Positions 32,808 through 38,824 of a DNA stretch of 64,000 bases are shown one piece after another; positions within the stretch are counted from its first letter, which is position 1; each line of letters opens with the position of its first letter. The stretch spans positions 1-64,000 of the forward strand of contig CAJYHS010000099.1 in the NCBI GenBank assembly GCA_913774715.1. The letters are read 5' to 3'. The notes beneath the pieces were generated by a model. That model did no database searches. It worked only from the letters and a program-made list of their open reading frames with translations, and had not been told where the DNA came from. The DNA is from an uncultured Siphonobacter sp. (lineage in GTDB: Bacteria; Bacteroidota; Bacteroidia; Cytophagales; Spirosomataceae). The position numbers were made by a program, and so were the translations under genes.

Positions 32808-35800
32808 ATGCACCATTTAAAGCAAAAGCTTTTTACATTATTAGAAAGCGATGATCATTTTTTTTCCTTTTTCCAAGAGTCGGGATTGTGGATTTGGGAT
32901 GTTTTACACCCTGATCATCACTGGATGAGCCCTAATTTTTGGAAAAAGCTGGGCTATGAACTCAACGACACTCCGGACCTGCTTCAAGGCTGGCAACAGC
33001 TAATCCACCCCGATGATATTGCGTTTCTTACTGAGCAACTTCAAACGTATTTGACCGACCCAGAGGCCGTTTTTGACGTGCATGTAAGGTATTTGCATAG
33101 GCTAGGATCCATCGTCTGGTTTCGTTGCCGGGCTATAGCTATGCGTGATGAGCAAGGAAAGGCTACTTTATTAGCAATTAGTCATTTGGATGTTACTCAG
33201 GAGAAAGAAGCCGAGTTAAAAGCTCTACAACAATCATTACTCTATGAATACATTTTAAGCAGTCAGATCCTGTACGTAGCTAAAATGGATTTAAGGGGTC
33301 AGTATACGTTTGTAAGCCAAACCTACGCCGAGTCTTTAGAGGAGACCGGAGAGGTTCTACTTGGAAAACGGGCTATAGACTTAGTCATAGCCGAGGATGT
33401 AGCGCTTTGCCAGCAAACCCTGCAGGCTTGCCTTGATCATCCTTTGGTTTCCTATACCATCCAGGTTCGAAAACGAGCAGAGGGTAAATCCATTCAGACC
33501 TACGAGTGGAATTTGACGGGTCTGGAAGATAGTTCCGGTCAGGTGAGCGAAATTTTATGCCTGGAACGTGATGTCACGCAAAGCATAAAGACTCAAACTA
33601 ATTTATCGGTTTTGCTTTCCAGCATGAGTGATATTCTTTCCATGACTACGCCCGAGGGAATGATCACGTATTTATCACCCGCTTGGACGAAAATCCTGGG
33701 CTACTCGGTAGAAGAGTGTCTGGGAAAAACGATCGGAGATTTCTTGCACCCTGAGGATATGCCCCGGGCTTTTGAAACGGTTGAATTGGCTATGAATCAG
33801 CAAAAGGCCTGTTTTGAACATCGAATCAAACATGCTCAAGGCCATTATATCTGGATGGAAACCAAGGCTACTATTCCTAACGGCAATGAAGAAATTGTTT
33901 GGACGAGCCACGATATTCACCAGCGAAAAAAGGCCGAAGAGGAACTTTTAAAAACCAAGGCATTACTCGAAGAAACGAGTCGGTTAGCCAAAGTGGGAGC
34001 CTGGGAGATGATGATGGATAGTGACCAATTATACTGGTCAGAGGTAACTAAGGAAATTCACGAACTGCCCGCCGATTACATTCCTGAGCTTTCCCAAGGG
34101 ATTAACTTTTATGCTTCTCAAGAAGCCCGCGACCGCATTCAGGCGGTGGTAGAAAAAGCAATGATTGAGGGAACCTCCTGGGATTTAGAAGAGCAGATTC
34201 AAACCGCTAAAGGAAATCTTCGCTGGGTACGTACCATTGGGCAAGTAGAAATGGTAGACGGTAAGGCCGTACGCATGTTTGGTACGTTTCAGGATATCGA
34301 CGATCGGAAAAAAGCGGAACAGGAAACTCAGAAAGCCCGTCACCAGGCCGAAGCTGCCAGTAAGGCTAAGTCGGAGTTCATGGCCAATATGAGTCATGAA
34401 ATTCGAACGCCCTTGAACGGGGTCATTGGTTTTACCGAACTGCTTTTGAAGACGCCCCTGGATGAAAATCAGCGTCTTTATCAGAAAACCGTGTACGATT
34501 CGGCTAATTCACTGCTGAATATTCTCAATGATATTCTTGAGTTTTCTAAAATAGAAGCGGGTAAACTCTCGCTCGTGGCTGAAAAAACGGAACTTGAATT
34601 ACTCGGTCAACAGACGCTGGATCTTATTACGACTCAGGCTCAGAACAAGGGTCTGGAAGTACTCTTTTATAAAGAAAGCCAGGTGCCCCACTGGATTTGG
34701 GTGGATGAGCTGCGGCTGCGGCAAGTACTGGCTAATTTACTCAGTAATGCCGTTAAGTTTACTTTGCAGGGAGAAATAGAGTTGAAAATTAAAGTCCTTG
34801 AAAAAGGACATGGGGAGAGTCTGCTGCGCTTTTCCGTATGCGATACGGGAATTGGCATTGAAACGGAAAATCAGCGTAAAATTTTTGAAGCCTTCACCCA
34901 GGAAGATCTTTCGACGACCAAAAAGTTTGGAGGTACGGGTTTGGGTTTGACCATTTCCAATCGTTTGCTGGGCTTAATGGGAAGCCAGCTTTCGCTCAGT
35001 AGCGAAATAGGAAAGGGAAGCTGCTTTAGCTTTGATTTACGCTTGCCTACGGCTAGCGAGCCGCCTGAAGAGGCAAAAGACTGGCCGTATCTAGACCGGA
35101 TTAAATCCCTGCTCATTGTGGATGATAATGCTTCTCATCGGCGGGTTTTAGAGCAGATGCTTCTAGAGCAGGAAATTAGCTGTCGGCTGGCAAAAAATGG
35201 ATTAGAGGCCCTGGAACTCTTGAGTAGTGAATCTTTTGATGCGGTAGTGATGGACTATCAAATGCCCTATCTCAATGGATTGGAAACGCTTGAAAAAATG
35301 AGCGCTTTTACTTCAGTGCCGCCGGTGCTGTTGATGGTTACGATTTCGCAAGGCTTAGAGCTGGAAAAAAGCGGAAAACCTCTTTTAATGAAGCCTCTGA
35401 AGCGAAAGCAGCTTTTTACTTCCCTTTCCAATCTCTTTGAACCAGAGCAGCAGGCGATCACTCCGCAAGTAGCGGCAGTGGATGTGCCGCCCCAGAATTC
35501 AAACGGAAAAGAAGCAACGGCTTCCATTCTCATTGTGGAAGACAATGCCGTCAACCGCTTGCTTGCTAAAAAGCTCATTGGGTCGCTCAGGCCGGATCTT
35601 AGCGTACACGAAGCCCACGACGGCAAACAGGGCGTGCAGGCCTTTGTCGAGCATCAGCCCGATCTGATTCTCATGGATATTCAAATGCCGGAAATGAACG
35701 GCTATGAAGCCACGCAGGAAATTCGCAAGCTAGAGTCGGGCCATACGCCCATTTTGGCCCTTACGGCGAGTATTTTACCCGGTGAAAAAGAAAACTGCAT

Positions 35801-35897
35801 GGCCGCTGGTATGGATGACTATTTAACCAAGCCCATTGCCCGTACCGTACTCGAGCAGGCTCTGGTAAAATGGTTACCCGTGCATCTCCCTTTGTAA
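32808..35897 (+). CDS. Multi-PAS hybrid sensor histidine kinase/response regulator (copy 2)
   Basis: 1029 residues, collinear with the kinase at 22573 over its full length. N terminus MHHLKQKLFTLLESDDHFFS; four PAS/PAC modules; HisKA ([20 protein letters not shown], His about 529); HATPase ([21 protein letters not shown]); receiver 1 (AVVMDYQMP, Asp about 815); receiver 2 (LILMDIQMP, Asp about 956). Both receivers keep their acidic pocket and Lys (MKPLKRK; LTKPIAR). It is soluble, and the signal is unknown. It converges on metX with an 80-bp gap. The two copies probably arose by duplication and have diverged mainly in the sensor modules and the spacer between receivers. Confidence 0.93.
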   Translation: MHHLKQKLFTLLESDDHFFSFFQESGLWIWDVLHPDHHWMSPNFWKKLGYELNDTPDLLQGWQQLIHPDDIAFLTEQLQTYLTDPEAVFDVHVRYLHRLGSIVWFRCRAIAMRDEQGKATLLAISHLDVTQEKEAELKALQQSLLYEYILSSQILYVAKMDLRGQYTFVSQTYAESLEETGEVLLGKRAIDLVIAEDVALCQQTLQACLDHPLVSYTIQVRKRAEGKSIQTYEWNLTGLEDSSGQVSEILCLERDVTQSIKTQTNLSVLLSSMSDILSMTTPEGMITYLSPAWTKILGYSVEECLGKTIGDFLHPEDMPRAFETVELAMNQQKACFEHRIKHAQGHYIWMETKATIPNGNEEIVWTSHDIHQRKKAEEELLKTKALLEETSRLAKVGAWEMMMDSDQLYWSEVTKEIHELPADYIPELSQGINFYASQEARDRIQAVVEKAMIEGTSWDLEEQIQTAKGNLRWVRTIGQVEMVDGKAVRMFGTFQDIDDRKKAEQETQKARHQAEAASKAKSEFMANMSHEIRTPLNGVIGFTELLLKTPLDENQRLYQKTVYDSANSLLNILNDILEFSKIEAGKLSLVAEKTELELLGQQTLDLITTQAQNKGLEVLFYKESQVPHWIWVDELRLRQVLANLLSNAVKFTLQGEIELKIKVLEKGHGESLLRFSVCDTGIGIETENQRKIFEAFTQEDLSTTKKFGGTGLGLTISNRLLGLMGSQLSLSSEIGKGSCFSFDLRLPTASEPPEEAKDWPYLDRIKSLLIVDDNASHRRVLEQMLLEQEISCRLAKNGLEALELLSSESFDAVVMDYQMPYLNGLETLEKMSAFTSVPPVLLMVTISQGLELEKSGKPLLMKPLKRKQLFTSLSNLFEPEQQAITPQVAAVDVPPQNSNGKEATASILIVEDNAVNRLLAKKLIGSLRPDLSVHEAHDGKQGVQAFVEHQPDLILMDIQMPEMNGYEATQEIRKLESGHTPILALTASILPGEKENCMAAGMDDYLTKPIARTVLEQALVKWLPVHLPL

Positions 35898-35977: not shown

Positions 35978-37354
35978 TTAAGTAGAACTGGTCTTTTTTA
36001 AGGGAAACTCCGGGGGCAGGGTTTGACTGCGACCATCGCTCAAATAAATGCGATTGTTCTTCTCGTCAAAGCTTTTGATGTGACGGGTATTGGCTAGAAT
36101 GTGGGGCAGGTACGGGCTTAGCAGGGTAAAATCATAGTTTTCCTGCAAAGCCAGACTTACTTTATCTAATACCGTATCCGATTCAATGCGGTTACCGTTG
36201 ATGAGATGAATCGTGTAGGGGGTGGCCAGAAACGAAATATTATCGACGGCAATGTATTCTCTTACTCCCTTTCGTACATCCACGTGCACCCGGTCACGAA
36301 CGATGAGTTCTTCTTCTTCGGATTCGGGTTCCAAGCGGTTGGAAAGCTCCCAGGTGCGGATGGTCTTGGTCATGAGTTCATTTTCAACCAAAAAACCATC
36401 GTGGCCGTAGAGAGAGTCAATTTCAGTTAATTCAGCCTGGGGAATATATCGGGCTAAAAACCGCTGCTCTTCGACAGGAAATAATACGTCCGACTGAATG
36501 CCGATAATAAGGGTCTGGGCTTTAATGCGGTTCAAGGCCGACATGGCTCCGCCGCGATTTCTGCCCACATCGTGCGAATCCATCATTCTCGACAGACTAT
36601 AATAGGAAAAGGCATTGAACCGGGTAGCAATTTTTTCTCCCTGATACCGCTGATACGAACTGGCCCTGAAATGCTCAAGCACAGATTCTTCGCGGGCCTG
36701 GGTATACTCGTACATGACTGCACTGCGATAACTCAGTAGAGCAGTGGCCCGGGCGGCTTTCATGCCCATGCTGCCCGCGTCCGCTCGCCGCTCCTGCCAG
36801 GTTTGATCAGCTTCAATGGCCATGCGCTGGGACTCATTAAAGGCAATACCCCAAGGCGACATGCGGGCATTGGTGGCAATTAGAATGAGCTGTTTAAACA
36901 GCTCCGGCTTTTGAATGGCCCACTCTAGAGCCTGCTGCCCGCCCAGGGAACCACCTACAAGCATACTAACGTGATGAATTTGTAAATACTCCCGCAACAG
37001 ATCCAGGCTTTTGACAACGTCACGAATGGTCACTAGAGGAAAATCCTGATAATAAGGCTCCTGCGTAAGCGGGTTAATCGAAAGAGCCGAGGTAGAACCG
37101 TAAGCCGAGCTAAGCACGTTAGCGCAAACAATAAAGTACTGCCTCGTATCGAGCAACTTTCCTTCACCCACCAGTCCACTCCACCAATCCGTCACGTCTG
37201 AATTACCCGTCAGGGCGTGACAAATCCAAACCACGTTATCCGCGGTAGCGTTTAACTTTCCAAAGGTGTGATAGGCTACCTCAATTTCGGGTAACGTCTC
37301 TCCGCATTCCAGGTCAAACGGCTGCGGATAGTGAAAAATCTGTAACTCAGACAA
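35978..37354 (-). CDS. metX: Homoserine O-acetyltransferase with an extra C-terminal LytTR-like domain
   Basis: Makes O-acetyl-L-homoserine from homoserine and acetyl-CoA. Residues 1 to about 345 form the alpha/beta-hydrolase core with nucleophile elbow GGSLGGQQ (Ser136), Asp289 (GIQSDVLFP) and His318 (YGHDGF). Typical MetX ends near here, but this protein has 458 residues. The additional segment (about 366-450: [20 protein letters not shown], then [41 protein letters not shown]) has the strand/helix pattern of a LytTR DNA-binding domain, with an altered recognition loop. It follows metY by 102 bp in an operon led by a SAM-I riboswitch. The core call is firm; the extra domain is by eye. Confidence 0.92.

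Positions 37355-37456: not shown

Positions 37457-38824
<1,368 letters not shown>

Follow-up and report, generated by a model that had tools for sequence, protein, structure and literature searches.

The MetX enzyme of Siphonobacter carries a C-terminal tail that is conserved throughout the genus, is kept under selection, is remotely akin to LytTR domains and differs from them in the motif that contacts DNA. We examined its gene within a window of 64,000 nucleotides, the whole stretch of DNA analyzed here, from the genome of an uncultured Siphonobacter sp. (contig CAJYHS010000099.1); among named organisms, the nearest relatives of the window are Siphonobacter genomes. The tail probably retains the LytTR fold, has lost DNA binding and works through contact or regulation; we give a probability of roughly 0.55 to the reading that a LytTR-derived tail, which no longer reads DNA, now serves as a structural or allosteric module by protein contact. 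The established role of LytTR domains is that of a DNA-binding output, and a tail derived from one of them without its DNA-reading residues, on a central metabolic enzyme, would, if true, show protein contact or allostery to be a further use of the fold. As a small genus, Siphonobacter would then allow the passage from a regulator to an enzyme module to be tested directly.

The MetX enzyme and its operon

The ORF analysis of the window placed metX on the minus strand, from 37354 down to 35981, with the stop codon extending to 35978, and across this interval the plus strand has many stops in the matching frame. The encoded protein has 458 residues, and its start codon is TTG (37352-37354). The other Siphonobacter species (L019-L022 and L123) have TTG at the homologous position as well, so that all six share it; the codon is located at the conserved N-terminus of MetX and looks like a conserved non-ATG start. 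The catalytic core (residues 1-338; 36341..37354, minus strand) has the alpha/beta-hydrolase fold with conserved Ser136, Asp289, and His318, and these three positions are invariant in 36 aligned Bacteroidota MetX sequences. Residues 14-337 aligned with solved homoserine O-acetyltransferases (E 1.7e-58), TIGR01392 covered residues 11-334, PF00561 scored above its cut-off on Siphonobacter MetX, and the AlphaFold2 pLDDT of the core was mostly above 85. The window protein reached 351.3 bits with TIGR01392 (cut-off 500) and 321.8 bits with NF001209 (cut-off 331), thereby missing both equivalog cut-offs. Four other Bacteroidota MetX proteins from outside Siphonobacter also missed the TIGR01392 cut-off, three of which missed that of NF001209 as well, and both cut-offs seem strict for Bacteroidota. 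The window protein is a MetX-type homoserine acyltransferase with an otherwise ordinary core. An earlier note on this DNA had described a 458-residue MetX with a long extra tail, and our analysis agrees: the core ends at about residues 334-338, the C-terminal excess over it amounts to about 110-120 residues, and the tail residues quoted in the note are present as written.

Upstream of metX in the same operon lies a metY-like ORF of 433 aa (37457..38758, minus strand) of the PLP-dependent sulfhydrylase type, which we take to be metY from its sequence together with general knowledge. The metY leader contains a SAM riboswitch (RF00162; 38959..39078, minus strand; 79.7 bits), and these two upstream elements provide a methionine-pathway context for metX. 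The riboswitch is also found at the Siphonobacter loci L019-L022 and at loci outside the genus; at L123, where the available DNA is short, none was found. On the other side, a hybrid sensor histidine kinase gene (32808-35897, plus strand), encoding several PAS-type stretches, HisKA, HATPase, and two receiver domains, is convergent with metX and separated from its end by a gap of about 80 bases. The same genome encodes a second MetX-like alpha/beta-hydrolase (G000:C102:2477-3373, locus L002) of 353 aa, which shows 26% identity, is without the tail and was matched by no NCBIfam model at E 1e-80.

Distribution and selection of the tail

The tail comprises three parts, all encoded on the minus strand: an acidic variable linker (residues 339-352; 36299..36340), a LytTR-like domain (residues 353-448; 36011..36298), and a variable C-terminal end (residues 449-458; 35978..36010 with the stop codon). 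It is in frame in all six available Siphonobacter species, in which the C-terminus lies 137-142 residues downstream of where the GHD motif begins, compared with 7 to 56 residues at about 75 other Bacteroidota MetX loci. An order-wide search detected MetX in 328 of 390 genomes, and among the roughly 150 order-wide MetX matches listed, the alignment extended past residue 364 only in Siphonobacter. Searches with the tail against 291 genomes of the order, 41 of the family, and 395 of the class gave, outside Siphonobacter, weak matches only, of which none was a MetX. Among the MetX proteins inspected, the tail is restricted to this one genus; a survey of Cytophagales MetX for the same tail, which the earlier note had recommended, thus returned Siphonobacter alone and not the order at large. 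The weak order-wide matches that were scanned fell in a phosphomannomutase, a flavoprotein, and a LysM protein, except for two LytTR proteins (L008 and L016), and the class-wide matches were mostly broken frames or unrelated, with one LytTR response regulator (L194). A MetX from another family of the same order (L183:939-2513; G177:C1) ends in another kind of extension, about 150 residues long, which gives a weak HEPN-type match under the cut-off (PF18735) and contains an LRNSFAHKR motif. MetX has thus gained C-terminal additions more than once.

Identity to S. aquaeclarae was 65.6-68.8% in the tail and 78.9-82.8% in the core, and the tail evolves faster. Nevertheless, invariant columns make up more than half of the tail alignment of the six Siphonobacter species. 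Synonymous sites were saturated and the dN/dS of the tail was about 0.01-0.15 where measurable (up to about 0.28 in the linker, the least conserved part), which indicates that the tail is under purifying selection. This selection and the in-frame presence in six species argue that the tail is neither a sequencing error nor a chance read-through. The same data bear on the possibility that a LytTR-derived tail came passively with the fusion, as a by-product tolerated without a role of its own. Such a by-product could evolve faster than the core and lose its DNA-reading parts, as this tail seems to have done, but we consider it unlikely to have kept its frame in six species whose synonymous sites are saturated, with so low a dN/dS and so many invariant columns.

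Kinship of the tail with LytTR domains

LytTR domains have been described as domains through which response regulators and further regulatory proteins bind DNA (PMC6193735). Direct sequence searches did not connect the tail with them: Pfam LytTR (PF04397), the check proposed in the earlier note, matched no tail of the six species even with E relaxed to 10, NCBIfam models did not match the tail, and a PDB sequence search with a tail profile returned chance matches only, with LytTR absent. By contrast, profile-profile comparison, in which the lack of any LytTR hit was to count against a LytTR-like tail, gave hits in the register that had been proposed. A profile of the six tails matched 60 LytTR domains in hhalign at 92.8% (score 38.2, columns 26-104 on 2-79 of 89), a value that is somewhat favourable because part of the set came in via a LytTR protein to which the tail had led. 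In the controls, the best of 300 shuffles scored 21.0, the reversed tail scored 11.7, and the best of 38 decoy families scored 24.2 at 5.8%. A tail-blind set of single-domain LytTR proteins, for which the one encoded in the window genome served as seed, was matched at 60.4% (score 29.0, columns 25-104 on 1-80), the best of 150 shuffles scoring 19.9. The part matched in both comparisons (tail columns 25/26-104) corresponds to residues 367-446 (36017-36256, minus strand).

Profiles of canonical response-regulator LytTR domains gave 6.7% and a score of 18.4, which is inside the shuffled range, and the genome's own 19 LytTR domains, used in the first comparison, gave 8.5%; better values were obtained only with sets rich in single-domain proteins. 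Since the tail-blind single-domain set was matched and the response-regulator set stayed within the shuffled range, the tail is, by profile comparison, closest to the single-domain LytTR type of Bacteroidota and remote from other LytTR domains. When a tail HMM was searched against the 41 genomes of the family, the top three intact ORFs outside Siphonobacter were LytTR proteins, as were four of the first six.

Structure prediction, also suggested as a check, yielded no confident fold: the AlphaFold pLDDT was 46 for the tail alone and 79.7 for the full chain, in which the tail was mostly under 50. In a Foldseek search of 350,542 PDB chains, this low-confidence model nevertheless had LytTR chains at ranks 1-4, 6, 7, and 9, with those of AgrA at the top of the list, at E values of 0.33 or worse; VIA-align with the same model listed no LytTR row. 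The order of secondary structure elements in the model (strand-strand-strand-helix-strand-strand-strand) fits LytTR, and the tails appear to keep the LytTR scaffold positions V-x-N-I (strand), I/V-H-L-I-x-G, L-x-K, D-F, I-L-x-N, F-D, and D-G.

The proposal that the tail is LytTR-like is therefore supported in part: the profile-profile match favours it, PF04397 and the AlphaFold model do not, and broad LytTR profiles match only weakly. We regard a LytTR origin of the tail as very probable. A genus-specific alpha/beta extension that aids the folding or oligomerisation of MetX and resembles LytTR by chance would explain why Pfam is silent, why AlphaFold confidence is low and why broad LytTR profiles score weakly. 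It is improbable, however, given an in-register match across the domain that exceeds shuffles, reversal, and decoys, including with the tail-blind set, a tail HMM that picks LytTR proteins first, and a Foldseek list headed by LytTR chains.

DNA-contact elements, proposed role and known systems

In AgrA, His169, Asn201, and Arg233 contact DNA (PMC11424843). We compared the corresponding elements of the tail, where the equivalence of residues with the AgrA contacts is inferred from a weak alignment. The recognition strand, taken over 78 tail-blind LytTR segments, consists of R (99%), any residue, H (73%), R/K (100%), and S (78%). The same stretch reads F-[TSA]-[LDQP]-L-[ST]-[PQ] in all six tails and is followed by a 3-residue insertion; none of them has R-x-[HNS]-[RK]-S. 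In the window protein, the place of H-R-S is taken by the segment SPYLPH (residues 413-418; 36101..36118, minus strand), which is three residues longer, and the ILAN that follows it (36089-36100, minus strand) aligns with I-V-N of LytTR. The altered recognition loop described in the earlier note is shared by the six available species, with R-x-H-R-S replaced and three residues inserted in each. In addition, all six tails have a loop some three residues shorter at the place of His169, and T-L-P where LytTR proteins have the S-R-R strand. With each of the three DNA-contact elements altered in every one of the six species, DNA binding is disfavoured and has probably been lost. Few parts of the tail are as conserved as the replaced segment L-P-H-I-L-x-N, which is nearly invariant, and such conservation is more in keeping with a new contact surface than with decay.

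A pattern scan of the window found no LytTR-type direct-repeat pair upstream of metY or in the metY-metX gap. The charge of the protein was rejected as a test of DNA binding, as the ranges of the tails (+0.1 to +2.1) and of the genome's own LytTR domains (-2 to +8) do not discriminate. It is quite unlikely that the tail still binds DNA as a LytTR domain whose recognition surface has changed, making MetX a "trigger enzyme" that reports the state of the methionine pathway to a promoter, possibly its own: the kinship by profile comparison, the conserved LPHILxN segment, and the mildly basic tail would agree with this, but the R, H/R, and S-R contact elements are gone from all six species, the His169 loop is shortened, the scanned regions have no direct-repeat pair, the charge is not discriminating, and a SAM riboswitch already controls expression.

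Our preferred reading, a LytTR-derived module acting by protein contact, would have the following history. On the stem lineage of Siphonobacter, metX would have gained a LytTR-type domain at its end, in place of the last residues of the enzyme; the donor domain may have been most like the single-domain LytTR proteins that are common in this bacterial family. The MetX catalytic core would have been retained after the fusion, and the added domain would have kept the LytTR strand-helix-strand scaffold and lost the three DNA-reading loops or strands. The tail may now pack on the MetX core or dimer, steer oligomerisation, or act allosterically, in each case by protein contact, and would do so at the first committed step towards methionine, in addition to the control that the SAM riboswitch already exerts on expression. 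We offer only tentatively the further idea that the LytTR scaffold, as an allosteric or assembly domain (or, less likely, in a DNA-binding MetX), adds a second, protein-level control of methionine synthesis on top of the riboswitch. Fusion with a neighbouring LytTR gene was rejected as the origin, as no LytTR ORF lies near metX at the loci of relatives. An independent fusion in a SAM-controlled operon, as the sequence had first suggested, is supported by these data in that the fusion is lineage-specific and RF00162 lies upstream, and its role may be regulatory; the option of DNA binding is the part that the changed contact elements of all six species disfavour.

In the open papers searched, no LytTR-enzyme fusion of this kind is described, and nothing is reported on LytTR together with homoserine enzymes or on Siphonobacter methionine genes. 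From its sequence, the Siphonobacter protein is a variant of a known enzyme, MetX with a degenerate LytTR-derived domain, confined to one genus. It resembles MetX (TIGR01392; 5w8o, 2b61, and 6iog) in its aligned core, its retained Ser-Asp-His residues, and its operon with metY and a SAM riboswitch, whereas the solved homoserine O-acetyltransferases that we found have 349-394 residues and are without the LytTR-like domain. With LytTR (PF04397; AgrA and ComE), the tail shares the domain-wide profile match, the predicted order of strands and helix, the hydrophobic pattern, and the ...VN...I... and I-x-L-x-DG strands, but it lies below Pfam detection, its contact elements are replaced (the S-R-R strand reads L-P), and it is fused to an enzyme instead of being attached to a receiver or standing alone. 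The best-scoring subfamily, the single-domain LytTR proteins of Bacteroidota (about 100-170 aa; L117 in the window genome, L133, and L136), has a similar I-K-x-Y/F-D ... I-Y-L-S-D-G stretch; unlike the tail, these proteins keep the DNA-contact motif and are encoded by separate genes. In concept, the nearest systems are trigger enzymes such as PutA, metabolic enzymes that also bind DNA; the Siphonobacter enzyme is like them in having a DNA-binding-type domain but differs in that its tail appears to have lost the DNA-contact residues. According to the earlier note, some archaeal MetX proteins likewise have an added C-terminal domain, of the CBS type; both the domain and the lineage are unrelated.
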